A stretch of 52,711 nucleotides of DNA from an uncultured Bacteroidota bacterium (GTDB lineage Bacteria > Bacteroidota > Bacteroidia > Bacteroidales > P3), in assembly GCA_902775135.1 (NCBI GenBank), contig CACYKY010000014.1, positions 1-52,711 of the forward strand, in the 5' to 3' direction. Below, in pieces: positions 32,075 to 37,666 of this stretch. The notes beneath the pieces are model-generated. The model was not told where the DNA came from. It was given only the letters and a program-made list of their open reading frames with translations, and searched no databases. A program made the translations under genes and the position numbers. How positions within the stretch are numbered: position 1 is the stretch's first letter; each line of letters starts with the position of its first letter.

Positions 32075-33046
32075 ATGACAGCGAGTAACGATTTGCCGAA
32101 CGAGAAGATTTTTTCATTGGAAGAGATTGACTACGCACGGTTCTGGGGCACCAACGACAAGATGCTGGATTTTGTCAGGGTGCTGTTTCCCAAACTGAAG
32201 CTTATAGCGCGCGGCGACATGCTGAAAGCCATTGGCAGCGAGGAGGACATCGCCTGGTTCGAGGGCAAGCTGCAGGCGATGATGACCTACTACGACAAGT
32301 TCGGGCGCATCACGGAGAACGCCATCATGGGCATCATGGAAAACAGCGGCGGCAGCCCTGAGAGCGAAATGAGCGACGAGGTGCTGGTGCACGGTCGCAA
32401 CGGACTGCTCATCAAGGCGCGCACGCCGAACCAGCAGCGGCTGGTGCGTGCCGTCTACGACCACGACATGGTGTTCGCCATAGGGCCTGCCGGTACAGGC
32501 AAGACGTACACGGCGGTGGCCATGGCCGTGAGGGCCCTGAAGAACAAGGAGGTGCGGCGCATCATCCTCACACGTCCGGCGGTGGAAGCGGGCGAGAACC
32601 TGGGATTCCTGCCGGGCGACCTGCGCGACAAACTGGATCCCTACCTGCAACCGCTCTACGACGCCCTGCGCGATATGATACCGCAGCAGAAACTCCTCTC
32701 CTACTGGGAAGACAACACCATCGAGATTGCCCCTCTCGCCTTCATGCGCGGACGCACGCTGGACAACGCTTTCGTGATTCTCGACGAGGCGCAGAACGCC
32801 ACCTCGGCACAGCTCAAGATGTTCCTCACCCGCATGGGCCGCAACGCCAAATTCGTCATCACGGGCGACCTGACGCAGGTGGACCTCCCCCTAAACCAGC
32901 AGAGCGGCCTGTTGCAGGCTGTCAACCTCCTCAAGGATGTGAAAGGCATCGACATCATACAACTTGACAATAGCGACGTTATTCGTCACCGTCTCGTCAC
33001 CGACATTATCCGCGCCTATGAAAACCTACCCAAACTGCAAGATTAA
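32075..33046 (+). CDS. phoH: PhoH-family ATPase
   Basis: The cytosolic P-loop protein has 323 residues. An N-terminal region of about 110 residues precedes the PhoH domain. Walker A is GPAGTGKT (137-144), Walker B is VILDEAQN, and TGDLTQVDLP is the conserved sensor block. RPAVEAGENLGFLPGD is diagnostic. Members are linked to RNA metabolism and stress; the exact reaction is not settled. The ispE start codon lies inside its 3' end (29-bp overlap), so the two are co-transcribed. Confidence 0.95.
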   Translation: MTASNDLPNEKIFSLEEIDYARFWGTNDKMLDFVRVLFPKLKLIARGDMLKAIGSEEDIAWFEGKLQAMMTYYDKFGRITENAIMGIMENSGGSPESEMSDEVLVHGRNGLLIKARTPNQQRLVRAVYDHDMVFAIGPAGTGKTYTAVAMAVRALKNKEVRRIILTRPAVEAGENLGFLPGDLRDKLDPYLQPLYDALRDMIPQQKLLSYWEDNTIEIAPLAFMRGRTLDNAFVILDEAQNATSAQLKMFLTRMGRNAKFVITGDLTQVDLPLNQQSGLLQAVNLLKDVKGIDIIQLDNSDVIRHRLVTDIIRAYENLPKLQD

Positions 33047-33809
33047 CCTCGGGTTGCATGTCGTCGGCAAGCGACCCGACGGCTACCACAACCTCGAAAC
33101 CATCTTCCTGCCTGTCACAGACCTCTGCGACGAGCTGGAAATCACCGAACAGAATCCCCCGTCGGGGGGCGCCGCGCATGCGCCGCGCATGATACAGGAT
33201 GGCATCACCCTCGACAACGCCCCTGAGGACAACCTCTGCATGAAAGCATGGAGGCTGCTGCACGAGGAGTTCGGCATCCCGGCGGTGCACATCCGACTGA
33301 AGAAGGGCATCCCCTTCGGCGCCGGGTTGGGAGGAGGCAGCAGCGACGCCGCCTTCACGCTGAAAATGCTCAACGAGATGTTCTCGCTGCATCTGAACGA
33401 CACCGACTTGGAGCGCCGTGCCGCCATGCTGGGTGCCGACTGCGCCTTCTTCATCCAGAACCGCGCCGCCTACGCCACCGGCATCGGCGACCAGCTGGAG
33501 AATATCGAAATTCGAAATTCGAAATTCGAAGTTAAAATCGAGATTCCCGACGGCGAGCACGTCAGCACCAAGGAGGCCTATGGCGGTTTGAGACGCGACC
33601 TCTTCGGGACCCCAAGACCCGATTTGCGCGAGGCCATCAGACGGCCCATCGAGGAGTGGAGAAACCTCATCGTCAACGACTTCGAAAACTCGGTCTTCCC
33701 CGCACACCCCGCCATTGCCGCCCTCAAGGACGACTTCTACCGCCGCGGCGCCCTCTACGCCTCCATGACCGGCAGCGGCGCCGCCGTCTTCGGCATCTTC
33801 GCCCGCTGA
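33018..33809 (+). CDS. ispE: 4-diphosphocytidyl-2-C-methyl-D-erythritol kinase
   Basis: This GHMP kinase phosphorylates CDP-ME in the MEP isoprenoid pathway. It has 263 residues. The start MKTYPNCKINLGLHV carries the conserved N-terminal Lys/Asn, followed by KRPDGYHNLET. The ATP-binding motif is PFGAGLGGGSSDAA (99-112), and GADCAFFIQ and MTGSGAAVFGIF follow. The ATG at 33018 lies inside phoH; an earlier frame is unconserved. A short 7-bp tandem repeat encodes residues about 163-174, between the two domains. Confidence 0.95.
   Translation: MKTYPNCKINLGLHVVGKRPDGYHNLETIFLPVTDLCDELEITEQNPPSGGAAHAPRMIQDGITLDNAPEDNLCMKAWRLLHEEFGIPAVHIRLKKGIPFGAGLGGGSSDAAFTLKMLNEMFSLHLNDTDLERRAAMLGADCAFFIQNRAAYATGIGDQLENIEIRNSKFEVKIEIPDGEHVSTKEAYGGLRRDLFGTPRPDLREAIRRPIEEWRNLIVNDFENSVFPAHPAIAALKDDFYRRGALYASMTGSGAAVFGIFAR
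33505..33538 (+). repeat. 7-bp tandem repeat inside ispE (unit TCGAAAT)
   Basis: Units TCGAAAT (three times), TCGAAGT and a partial fifth lie in coding sequence. A 7-bp period is not a codon multiple, so each unit reads in a different frame. Confidence 0.85.
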
Positions 33810-33867
33810 AGTTTTTTTTTGCATCCACTGTCAGATTTCGGTCTCTCATGGGGTAATGTATAGATGA

Positions 33868-33984
33868 ATGGACAGACATGAGACATACACCGAACTACTG
33901 CGAGACCACTCCGCCCTCATCTGGAGCATGTGCCGCAATACCGCACATGGCGACTACGAGCGATGCCGCGACCTGTTCTAGGAC
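33868..33984 (+). other. in-frame 5' extension of the sigma factor, interrupted by an amber codon
   Basis: From the ATG at 33868 the frame of the downstream sigma gene encodes 37 residues that look like the start of a sigma-70 region 2 (HSALIWSMC, ERCRDLF). TAG at 33979-33981 interrupts it, where sigma proteins of this type normally have Gln (DLFQDV pattern). A single C-to-T change of CAG explains it. The frame continues without other damage into the next entry. Confidence 0.7.
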
Positions 33985-34977
33985 GTGTCGTTGCGGCTTT
34001 GGCAGCACTACGACGAGCTGCGCAGCGACGCCAAGTCCCACGAACGGAAAGCCTGGGTGGAATGGCAGGTGCGGCATGTACTGAATCATGCGGGACGGCG
34101 CGAACGACCTGTACCGATGAGCGACCTTCCCGAACAGCCCGACATCGATGCCCTGGACAAGGCCGAAATACGCACGCTGGTCAACGACCTTCTGACACAG
34201 CTCAATCCCGACGAACGGCAGATGTTGCAGATGCGCATGGACGGATACAGTGCCGGCGAGATAGCGAAGGAAATGGGTCTGAGCCGCGACACCGTCTATC
34301 AGCGCATGCACCGCACCCTGACCAAGGCCCGCAGGATATTGCTGGTGCTGTTCCTGCTGTTTATGGCCAGCTCCATCACCGTCGCCGTGGTGCCGTCGTG
34401 GCGGCAGAAAGTCTTCGGCGGCGGCAATCCATCGGCAACTGATACAACCCCCTCCAGCACCGCCAGTCCCTCCACGCCAGTCCCTGCGCCGGTTGCCGAC
34501 AGCAACGCGGACAGCATTCCTGCACACCGTGCATGGGTGCCTCCGCAGCCCATCCAGCACCTGGTCGCCGCAGCCGACACGTCGCTGCCCATGCCCTTGC
34601 CAACCTTTGACGAGTCCTGCGGCTGCCCCCAAGGCTATCAAAGGAAAACACAGACAGACAGCCTCGACACACTCGACGACCCCTGCGAACCCATACCCGA
34701 TGAACTGCCGCCGGCAACCATCAGGGTGGTGGGGAACACCATCGTGGTGGAGGATGTCATGAATGAACTTGTCGATATTTACGACACACGTGGGCGTCTG
34801 GTGGCCACAGCACATTGCGACGGCCGTTGCGCTATATCTTTCAAGATCGAGCAGAACTATCCGCGAGACAGATCCACCACAACACATGTCTTGTGGGTGC
34901 ATGTAGGGAACCGTCCACGTCAACGCGTCATAATAGAAGACCAACGGAATGACAGCCCACGCGTGTACGTTCGATGA
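33985..34977 (+). CDS. membrane-tethered sigma-70 family protein with periplasmic sorting-domain-like tail
   Basis: Counting from the GTG at 33985, the protein has 330 residues. Residues 1-35 complete a sigma region 2 (VSLRLWQHYDELR). Residues about 61-116 form sigma region 4, with LNPDERQMLQMRMDGYSAGE and the helix-turn-helix MGLSRDTVYQRMHRTL. One membrane helix spans 118-136, then a Pro/Ser/Thr-rich linker (146-205) and a Cys-bearing stretch (C212, C214, C234). A terminal beta domain (about 245-317) reads IRVVGNTIVVED, VDIYDTRGRLV and HVGNRPRQRVII. That last part resembles the tail of the LRR protein 34 bp downstream. If the upstream TAG is read as a stop, the native protein would need re-initiation at this GTG or readthrough. 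An ECF-type sigma regulating surface genes is the likely role, by inference. Confidence 0.8.
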   Translation: MSLRLWQHYDELRSDAKSHERKAWVEWQVRHVLNHAGRRERPVPMSDLPEQPDIDALDKAEIRTLVNDLLTQLNPDERQMLQMRMDGYSAGEIAKEMGLSRDTVYQRMHRTLTKARRILLVLFLLFMASSITVAVVPSWRQKVFGGGNPSATDTTPSSTASPSTPVPAPVADSNADSIPAHRAWVPPQPIQHLVAAADTSLPMPLPTFDESCGCPQGYQRKTQTDSLDTLDDPCEPIPDELPPATIRVVGNTIVVEDVMNELVDIYDTRGRLVATAHCDGRCAISFKIEQNYPRDRSTTTHVLWVHVGNRPRQRVIIEDQRNDSPRVYVR

Positions 34978-35011: not shown

Positions 35012-36799
35012 ATGAAAAAATTCTGTGCAATCATCATGATGAGCCTGACTGTCAGCGCCATGGGGCAGCAGGTATTTTTTGAAGCCGACGGCATCGCGTA
35101 CGGCGTCACATCGGAGCAGACTGTAGAAGTATTGCCCAAGTATTACTTTTACAACAGCCCCTACAGTGGTGCCCTCTCCATTCCCCAGACGGTGGAACAC
35201 GACGGCGCTACCTATACCGTGACGGCACTGGCGGCATCGGCCTTCGAGAGTTGCACCACGGTCACCAGCCTTACCCTGCCACCCACCATACGCACTATCG
35301 GCTCGTATTGCTTTTACGACTGCCGTTTCAGCACCCTGCTGCTACCCGACTCGTTGCGCGTCATCGAAGACCACGCCTTCCTCTACGCCAACGTCACGTC
35401 GCTGCACCTGCCGGCCTGCTTTGAGGAATACGGCGAGTGTGCCTTCTGGCTGAGGAACCTGGCGAGCATCACCGTCGACGAGGGCAATCCCCGCTACCGT
35501 TCCATCGACGGCTGGCTCTACAGCAAAGACAGTCTGACCCTCTGCCTGGTACCCAGCGGGACGACGGGAGCCGTCAGTGTGCCGCAATATGTGCGTCATC
35601 TCGGTTGGATGGCTTTCGGCTTTTGCGGTCAAATAAATTCGGTGACACTACCCGAAGGTCTGGAAAGCATCGGCGACTTCGCCTTCAACTGTTGCGCCTC
35701 GGTCGATGGCATCGTCATCCCATCGACGGTGACGCACATCGGCATCTGTCCCTTTTCTTACTGCCCGCAGATGAACAATCTCTCTCTTTCCCCCGGCAAC
35801 AGCCGCTACGTGCTCGACGGCCTGCTGCTCTACAACAGCAGCTACGACACACTAGTATCATGCCACAAGTCGGGCGCCACGGTCACGCTACACCCTAACG
35901 TGAAAGTGGTGGGCGGCTTCGAGAACAACACCTGGGTGCGGAATATCACATTACCCGAGAGTGTGACCGCCATCACCGACAACTGCTTCAACGGATGCAA
36001 ATTCACCAGCATCGCGCTGCCGGCCCACATGCAATCGATAGGCAGGAAAGCCTTTTCGGAGAACGACCGCCTCGCCAGCGTCACCATGCCGCAAACACTA
36101 CTCTCCATGGGCCAAGGGGCATTCGAATTCTGCTTTGCACTCACCTCCATTGCGATTCCCGACTCACTGCGCGTTATTCCCAAGGAGGCCTTCAACTCGT
36201 GCATCAAACTCAGCTCCGTTACTTGGAACAACGATGTGGAAGAAATAGGAGACTATGCCTTCTGGGCGATGGGGCAAATGAGCAGCACCCATGTCACAAC
36301 ACTCAGCCTGCCGACGTCATTGAGAAAGATTGGCGAATGTGCTTTCGGTGCATGCGACAACAACTTGCGTAACGTGTATTTCAACGGGCCGCTCGACACC
36401 ATGGGCGAAGCCGTGTTCAGCGGCGCCAACCTCGACCATATCCGTTTCTCCAATGGCAATCCTCCGGTTGCCACTGGTGAAGGCCCGCTCCATGACATCG
36501 GTCGCATCGACAGCATCGCCGTCCCCTGCGGTAGCCTCGATGCCTGGCTGGCCGACAGCTATTGGGGACAATTCGCCGACAAATACCACGAGAACTGCAG
36601 CGGCATTGACGACATCCATTCGCCCAACATCAAAGTCCACTCCCACGAAGGACGTATCATGGTCGAAGGCACCGACGGTGAAGCCATCCAAATCTTCGAC
36701 ATCACAGGCCGCATCATCCCCAATGAGAACCTATCCACCGGAGTCTACCTCGTCCGCGTCGGTCACCGCCCCGCCCGTAAAGTGGTCGTAATACAATAA
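35012..36799 (+). CDS. BspA-like leucine-rich-repeat protein with T9SS sorting domain
   Basis: The secreted surface protein has 595 residues with a signal peptide (about 1-19, SAMGQQ). It carries about a dozen LRR_5/BspA repeats with the core pattern SLTLPPTIRTIGSYCFYDC, from about residue 50 to 500. The end is a type A sorting domain (IQIFDITGRII, GVYLVRVGHRP, RKVVVIQ). BspA-type repeats bind host or partner proteins in known cases. The ATG at 35012 (MKKFCAII) gives the signal peptide, whereas an earlier frame does not. The sigma gene is 34 bp upstream, so they are probably co-transcribed and functionally linked. Confidence 0.92.
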   Translation: MKKFCAIIMMSLTVSAMGQQVFFEADGIAYGVTSEQTVEVLPKYYFYNSPYSGALSIPQTVEHDGATYTVTALAASAFESCTTVTSLTLPPTIRTIGSYCFYDCRFSTLLLPDSLRVIEDHAFLYANVTSLHLPACFEEYGECAFWLRNLASITVDEGNPRYRSIDGWLYSKDSLTLCLVPSGTTGAVSVPQYVRHLGWMAFGFCGQINSVTLPEGLESIGDFAFNCCASVDGIVIPSTVTHIGICPFSYCPQMNNLSLSPGNSRYVLDGLLLYNSSYDTLVSCHKSGATVTLHPNVKVVGGFENNTWVRNITLPESVTAITDNCFNGCKFTSIALPAHMQSIGRKAFSENDRLASVTMPQTLLSMGQGAFEFCFALTSIAIPDSLRVIPKEAFNSCIKLSSVTWNNDVEEIGDYAFWAMGQMSSTHVTTLSLPTSLRKIGECAFGACDNNLRNVYFNGPLDTMGEAVFSGANLDHIRFSNGNPPVATGEGPLHDIGRIDSIAVPCGSLDAWLADSYWGQFADKYHENCSGIDDIHSPNIKVHSHEGRIMVEGTDGEAIQIFDITGRIIPNENLSTGVYLVRVGHRPARKVVVIQ

Positions 36800-37043: not shown

Positions 37044-37075
37044 TTTGGCTATGTAAAATATAATGTGTAATTTTG
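37044..37075 (+). promoter_or_regulatory. promoter of the four-helix-bundle gene
   Basis: TTTG (37044-37047) and TAATTTTG (37068-37075) are 20 bp apart. The short leader leads to the ATG at 37097 and rules out the in-frame TTG at 37073. Confidence 0.8.
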
Positions 37076-37096
37076 CAAAATCAAAAACAGAAGAAA

Positions 37097-37666
37097 ATGG
37101 ACAGCAACAACCACAATCAACTCCTGGCATCCAGTGGCGACTATCGCCAACTGATATGCTACCAGAAATCTGTGGTTGTATACGATTTGACCTACTGGTT
37201 CTGCGAGCAATACATGAATCGCAGCAAAGACAGGACCGTCGACCAAATGGTGCAGGCAGCCCGCAGCGGAAAACAGAACATAGTGGAAGGGGTGACCGAC
37301 GGAGCCGCCAGCAAAGAGTCGGAGCTGAAGTTGCTGAAGGTCGCCGCCGGAAGCCTGCACGAACTACACGAGGACTACGAGGACTGGCTCCGCACACACC
37401 AGCATGCCATCTGGGCGAAAGACAGTGTCGAGACAAAAGCCCTGTGGACCTTGGGGAAAGAGCACAGCGAACCCGAATACTACCTTCAGCTGGCACGCAC
37501 ACGCCCTCCGCAGACAACAGCCAACATCGCCCGGGGAATGACTGAACAAGCCCTCTACTTCCTCGACCGGCTCATCCAATCGAAGACGAAGCAGTTTGTC
37601 GAAAACGGAGGCTTGAAAGAGCAGATGTATCGAGCCAGACAAGAATACCGGCAGCGGAACGGCTAG
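37097..37666 (+). CDS. four-helix-bundle protein (23S rRNA-IVP-like, with suffix domain)
   Basis: The 189-residue protein belongs to the S23/IVP-related four-helix-bundle family. The core is SKDRTVDQMVQAARSGKQNI and EGVTDGAASKESELKLLKVA. A C-terminal suffix helix pair carries MTEQALYFLDRLIQSK. Members first came from rRNA intervening sequences but occur as free genes in many Bacteroidota. Function is unknown; recombination or RNA-associated roles have been suggested. It has its own promoter. Confidence 0.9.
   Translation: MDSNNHNQLLASSGDYRQLICYQKSVVVYDLTYWFCEQYMNRSKDRTVDQMVQAARSGKQNIVEGVTDGAASKESELKLLKVAAGSLHELHEDYEDWLRTHQHAIWAKDSVETKALWTLGKEHSEPEYYLQLARTRPPQTTANIARGMTEQALYFLDRLIQSKTKQFVENGGLKEQMYRARQEYRQRNG

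Follow-up and report, generated by a model that had tools for sequence, protein, structure and literature searches.

Can an ECF sigma factor that runs, in one polypeptide, through a membrane helix into a periplasmic domain act as a signal transducer of the cell envelope? The question was raised by a gene on a 52,711-nucleotide contig of an uncultured Bacteroidota bacterium (assembly GCA_902775135.1, contig CACYKY010000014.1), the whole of which is referred to here as the window. The original prediction, made from the nucleotide sequence, had described the gene as a one-protein envelope transducer. This is the best reading for the family, whose members share the C-terminal region and whose genus also has a two-gene version, but the copy in the window is interrupted.

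Architecture of the fused protein and state of the window allele

The features of the locus are collected in Table 1. ECF sigma identity was firm, with TIGR02937 matching the read-through frame at E 1.5e-23 (83.2 bits, cut-off 42.9) and the shorter GTG frame at E 9.9e-16 (57.8 bits, cut-off 42.9). Sigma regions 2 and 4 had been assigned to a single open frame at 33868..34977, a delineation that overlooked the TAG at codon 38. The two regions were recovered as TIGR02937 and Sigma70_r4_2 matches, but the GTG frame is missing region 2.1 and the first part of region 2.2, with TIGR02937 matched only from model position 37. A complete region 2 is absent from the uninterrupted frame of the window and present in intact relatives.

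Table 1. Positions of the features of the fused sigma locus in the window, with the basis of each assignment.
Feature	Position	Strand	Basis
Motif TGTCAGATTT-N14-GTAATGTA	33829..33860	+	7 bases from motif end to ATG
Full frame of fused sigma gene, one interruption	33868..34974	+	Translation; ATG start, 369 codons; final stop 34975-34977
Sigma region 2, residues 8-79	33889..34104	+	TIGR02937 8-157; Sigma70_r2 10-79, E 2.5e-4, 21.2 bits vs Pfam cut-off 24
In-frame TAG, codon 38, within sigma region 2	33979..33981	+	Translation
GTG-start open frame, 330 aa	33985..34977	+	Begins two codons past TAG
Sigma region 4, residues 105-152	34180..34323	+	PF08281 (Sigma70_r4_2), E 2.5e-11
Predicted membrane helix, residues 157-175	34336..34392	+	Hydropathy; helix 140-174 in P0001 model
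Juxtamembrane motif V-V-P-S-W-R	34387..34404	+	V175, P176, R179 invariant in A1
Pro-rich linker, residues 185-283	34420..34716	+	19 Pro in 99 residues; mostly low model confidence
Beta domain, predicted fold of T9SS cargo C-terminal domain, residues 284-357	34717..34938	+	Predicted strands; fold and profile comparisons
C-x3-C pair, residues 317 and 321	34816..34830	+	C321 invariant, C317 at least 90% in 30 rows of A1
Downstream LRR_5 (BspA-type) protein, signal-peptide-like start, similar tail domain	35012..36799	+	PF13306, E 8.7e-75

The single membrane helix that had been placed at residues 118-136 of the GTG frame was borne out by a mean hydropathy of 2.82, and it starts a few residues past region 4 in all 30 rows of the hand-picked alignment A1. 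In a structure model of the intact relative P0001, which is of moderate confidence (mean pLDDT 68.3, pTM 0.31; pLDDT below 50 at 184-250 and 264-269), the final helix of region 4 runs on into this one without interruption. The Pro/Ser/Thr linker and the final beta domain described beforehand were likewise recovered, the latter as predicted strands whose likeness to a type IX secretion (T9SS) tail had gone unremarked. The count of three cysteines was too low, since five lie beyond the helix (251, 253, 273, 317 and 321). The N-terminus of the fused protein is the sigma domain itself, and an N-terminal export signal peptide is absent. Hydropathy and the modelled helix together suggest a topology with the sigma domain inside and the tail in the periplasm.

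At E <= 1 the window protein gave 25 Pfam matches, none of them to a FecR family or zinc-finger domain, and Pfam matches, alignment A1 and a helix-profile search revealed no recognised anti-sigma segment in the fusion. Absence of domains was judged from Pfam matches, the NCBIfam results (best 25 of 60 matches) being set aside for this purpose.

The alignment column interrupted by the TAG is invariant across the 30 relatives of A1. With this stop in region 2, the window allele is likely inactive as a sigma factor, as judged from its sequence. Decay into a pseudogene, which would leave only the downstream LRR gene of any importance in this genome, is on balance the probable fate of the window copy: the TAG falls within region 2, no CTA anticodon was found among the 45 tRNA matches of the genome, and TAG terminates 7 of the 31 mechanically called ORFs of at least 300 aa in the window, some of which are not genes. 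A recoded TAG was rejected as a simple reading on the same tRNA result and because TAG ends other long ORFs. Against decay, the remainder of the protein is 98% identical to P0001 over 100% of the query in the protein search, and the sigma part has a dN/dS of 0.11 against the nearest relative, from genome G016, so that any loss would be recent; the stop may also reflect a mixed population or an assembly error. Sigma and helix together differ from G016 by 5 nonsynonymous and 14 synonymous changes, the stop codon uncounted, and differences so few suggest that the damage is recent or a matter of assembly or strain. The pseudogene reading concerns the window allele and is compatible with the model proposed below for the family.

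The tail appears to resemble T9SS cargo C-terminal domains (8gl6, 8gl8, 7pq4, 5ag8 and 5hfs) in predicted fold and shows profile similarity to them, the latter computed with row L175 left out of the T9SS tail set. Unlike them, it is joined to a sigma factor that lacks an export signal peptide and carries a predicted membrane helix. The Pfam search of the window protein gave no match to Por_Secre_tail at E <= 1, nor was the window protein among the 61 Por_Secre_tail matches of the genome at E <= 0.01. The tail of the downstream LRR protein gave a DUF6383 score of 20.2 bits, below the cut-off of 23.7.

The strong conservation of the C-x3-C pair (Table 1) would fit a tail that senses redox or folding stress rather than secretion state. 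We regard this as rather improbable, given that the pair lies inside one predicted strand (311-324), that its first cysteine is missing from two aligned relatives (P0057 and P0061), and that LRR-fused tails share the pair, which may therefore only brace the fold.

Distribution, selection and exchange of halves in the family

A database search for the same architecture, proposed along with the original prediction, screened 3424 candidates and found 64 homologues at E <= 1e-3; in 49 of these the match, at 37-98% identity, spans 90% or more of the query. The concern that relatives of the sigma part might never carry the C-terminal region was dispelled, as the relatives do carry it. In ten pairs, dN/dS was 0.09-0.33 for sigma, 0-0.44 for the 18-codon helix and up to 0.61 for the linker, and 0-0.33 for the tail in nine pairs (undefined in the tenth). 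A chance fusion or annotation artefact was rejected on the coverage of the 49 long homologues and on the purifying selection acting on both halves.

Within the genus, a match running through the helix (defined as ending at residue 190 or later) was found in 54 of 120 genomes, that of the window included, when the best 10 candidates at most were scored per genome; the 66 genomes without a fused match under this scoring include many incomplete ones. The other 70 genomes of the family gave no fused match at E <= 1e-50 (best 10 candidates at most per genome), and the window's own genome was the sole one to match both among 393 genomes of the order at E <= 1e-60 and among 395 of the phylum at E <= 1e-45 (best 5 candidates at most per genome in each). 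When viral contigs were scanned once with P0001, no relative turned up, leaving a viral origin unsupported. Across 47 loci, the named records are uncultured Bacteroidales or Bacteroidetes, and several are titled ruminant rumen, reticulum, omasum or rectum.

The two halves of the protein can have separate histories. In blocks of ten codons, similarity between the window and G016 is 87-100% as far as codon 180 and drops to 38-87% beyond; for the G070 and G100 genes the pattern is inverted, with 40-80% as far as codon 156 and 80-100% from codon 157 onward, a likeness that persists across the LRR gene downstream. These switches of identity show that sigma and sensor halves have been exchanged near the helix. 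In G070 and G100 the sensor travels with its LRR neighbour; G016, with a sensor unlike that of the window, has a lipoprotein-like gene downstream in place of the LRR gene.

The genus also contains a split version, in which neighbouring genes encode a sigma factor and a membrane protein with a cytosolic segment of about 45 residues that is absent from the fusion. Tree reconstruction required three changes and is still compatible with the fusion having arisen once; several sigma clades have a similar tail. The tree omits rows L073_5089, L070_5439 and L011 (skipped), as well as L016 and ORFs shorter than 140 aa, and L001 is represented in it by the window row. Alignment A2, hand-picked like A1, holds 54 of the 64 homologues. 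Totals of fused ORFs vary with the filter applied: 53 for the motif and -10 counts, 52 for the LRR count, and 51 for the tree and the helix-profile search.

Ten of the 15 soluble ECF sigma genes examined in the window's genome (L002-L018) are followed by a gene for an 86-147-aa single-helix protein. These small proteins have a short, arginine-rich cytosolic start and are perhaps a putative small anti-sigma family. None of the ten was matched by the helix profile of the fused family.

A promoter-like motif and the neighbouring genes

Gene-neighbourhood comparison, another step suggested at the outset, revealed LRR and lipoprotein-like neighbours and also a shared promoter-like motif that the original prediction had missed. 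The two-part pattern has a single exact match in the 2.57-Mb genome, directly before the window sigma gene; in fixed-spacing form with up to 3 mismatches, one further site was found on another contig. Over the 454,443 bases of family loci, TGTCARATTT-N13/14-GTAWT occurs 52 times, and 0 times in each of 10 shuffles. When each site was assigned to a gene within the next 220 bases, with preference given to sigma genes, 38 of these sites stood before a fused sigma gene (38 of 53 such ORFs, the other 15 having no motif match), 8 before an LRR gene, 5 before a lipoprotein-like gene and 1 before none. The motif was absent from the upstream stretches of the genome's soluble paralogues, several of which have variants such as GTAAGATTT.

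We infer from these sequence patterns that the motif is a promoter read by the fused sigma. The sixth base of the -10 element is G in all 13 rows of the window's sigma clade (support 100/100) and A in all 25 other motif-bearing fused genes (Fisher p 1.8e-10, with shared descent ignored). A -10 base that tracks the sigma clade is the pattern expected of a sigma factor and its own promoter, and may also be one inherited change.

About ten bases separate the predicted -10 from the ATG (33853-33870), and the sigma gene would accordingly be transcribed with little or no leader. Some motifs lie inside an inverted repeat (L051:8889-8921 and comparable sites in L052 and L053), whose arms co-vary between copies (CACCTCCGA/TCGGAGGTG and CACATCCAA/TTGGATGTG), possibly as an operator or an RNA hairpin.

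The LRR gene of the window has no motif of its own; it is likely co-transcribed with the sigma gene and likely read from the sigma promoter. The regulon in this genome is likely local, comprising the sigma gene and its LRR neighbour downstream. In the family, an LRR gene lies within 2.5 kb of 17 of the 31 fused genes that have no LRR repeats of their own and at least 2.5 kb of flanking sequence on either side (two LRR genes were counted for two sigmas each). By a rough estimate, about 4% would have such a neighbour by chance, given some 13 LRR ORFs in the 2.57-Mb genome (32 matches grouped by hand), the related loci not being independent. LRR repeats also occur within 14 of 52 fused ORFs, several of them past an internal signal-peptide-like stretch.

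This proximity to LRR genes and the LRR repeats inside fused ORFs are also what would be seen if the tail were the relic of a fused cargo gene that senses nothing, the fusion serving only to set a low sigma level. Such an origin is distinctly unlikely, as the tail is under constraint in the nine pairs with a defined dN/dS and a similar tail has been retained in several sigma clades.

Frames of 800 aa at L059:5418-7910, L065:5711-8128 and similar places hold sigma and helix in frame with an LRR protein, including its internal signal-peptide-like stretch. At L060 (G076) the sigma-helix and LRR parts are in different, overlapping frames, and the LRR part may for that reason be made separately from an internal start. 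Further downstream in the window, a frame at 37073-37666 on the plus strand resembles a four-helix-bundle protein, which we take to be of the 23S rRNA intervening-sequence type, and a similar frame is found behind the fused gene of L065. The upstream genes at 32075-33809 on the plus strand are presumably phoH and ispE; within the window's sigma clade of 13 rows, genes like these lie upstream in 12, and the remaining row, L058, has only 415 bases upstream.

Proposed mechanism and relation to known systems

Altogether, the family is best described as ECF sigmas in which region 4 runs into a predicted membrane helix, followed by a Pro-rich linker and a T9SS-tail-like domain, and in which the tether likely replaces an anti-sigma protein and would be cut on an envelope signal, the freed sigma then transcribing its own operon. 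We give this reading a probability of roughly 0.58. The sigma's own helix would anchor it at the membrane, and the tethered form would presumably be inactive. A signal at the tail would expose the outer part to proteases, and a site-1 protease followed by an RseP-like site-2 protease would cut the helix and free the sigma, which would then transcribe its own operon. One PF02163 (RseP-like) gene is present in the window's genome.

Regulators such as ToxR and CadC act from the membrane without release, and the sigma might do likewise. With no recognised anti-sigma segment in the fusion, the tether is the sole obvious block to activity, and in the window's genome the exact motif is local to the sigma gene; both would suit work from the membrane. 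It is nevertheless unlikely: in the model, helix 140-174 joins the recognition part of region 4 to the membrane without a break, which would leave little slack for RNA polymerase, and the related IutY is described as activated by release (PMC5411451).

What the signal might be is more speculative than release itself. A possible though doubtful elaboration treats the tail as a decoy of a T9SS cargo tail, presented by the Pro-rich linker to the translocon or to the tail-cutting sortase, whose engagement or cutting would free the sigma; one protein would then read secretion capacity and set adhesin expression, and sensor and cargo would form a cassette plugged into resident sigma genes at the helix. 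Linker lengths in 32 short-form relatives (26-119 residues, median 77, as measured by a rough pattern) count against this idea, as in some relatives the linker probably could not span the periplasm.

The proposal that a sigma with its own tether departs from the soluble ECF norm held in that the fusion is real, but membrane-fused ECF sigmas are known, as described for IutY and for ECF48, ECF52 and ECF53. IutY of Pseudomonas putida (ECF243) is described as a sigma/anti-sigma hybrid released by Prc and RseP; as predicted for the fused family, its one chain joins an ECF sigma in the cytosol to a membrane pass and a domain in the periplasm (PMC8999054, PMC5411451). By these accounts it keeps an anti-sigma part and serves a siderophore receptor system, whereas the fusion has no FecR-like Pfam match; additionally, the helix of the fused family comes directly after region 4, and its neighbours are often LRR and lipoprotein-like genes.

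Among Actinobacteria, ECF52 (SCO4117), ECF48 and ECF53 are reported to have a C-terminal membrane helix (PMC8999054, PMC5826349), ECF52 being described as exclusive to that phylum (PMC5826349). The likeness to ECF52 as described lies in the Pro-rich outer region, comparable to the linker of the fusion, and in the presence of an outer domain. The zinc-finger described before the helix in ECF48, ECF52 and ECF53 and the carbohydrate-binding module described in ECF52 have no counterpart among the Pfam matches of the fusion. Release is presented as a proposal for ECF52 (PMC8999054, PMC5826349), and IutY provides the tested precedent (PMC5411451).

In Porphyromonas gingivalis, a protein with a T9SS C-terminal domain, PorA, is reported to feed an ECF sigma pathway through PorXY-SigP (PMC7712824). 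There, as described, the tail protein, the two-component system and the sigma are separate, whereas in the fusion tail and sigma are one protein. Among the titles listed by searches of open-licence papers, none describes a membrane sigma with a T9SS tail.

The fused family falls within the ECF definition and lacks the defining features of IutY and of ECF48, ECF52 and ECF53 tested here, and for this reason we consider it a new variant of membrane-fused ECF sigmas. Membrane fusion as such is already known from IutY and ECF52; what appears new, from sequence comparison, is the combination of no recognised anti-sigma domain with a secretion-tail-like sensor. If the proposed mechanism is true, the family would represent compact envelope-crossing signalling, with a tether substituting for an anti-sigma protein. 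One-gene and two-gene forms coexist in one genus, so that the step between them can be studied directly, and the predicted promoter and local operon ease testing. If the tail reads secretion state, adhesin expression would be linked to the export machine in one protein.
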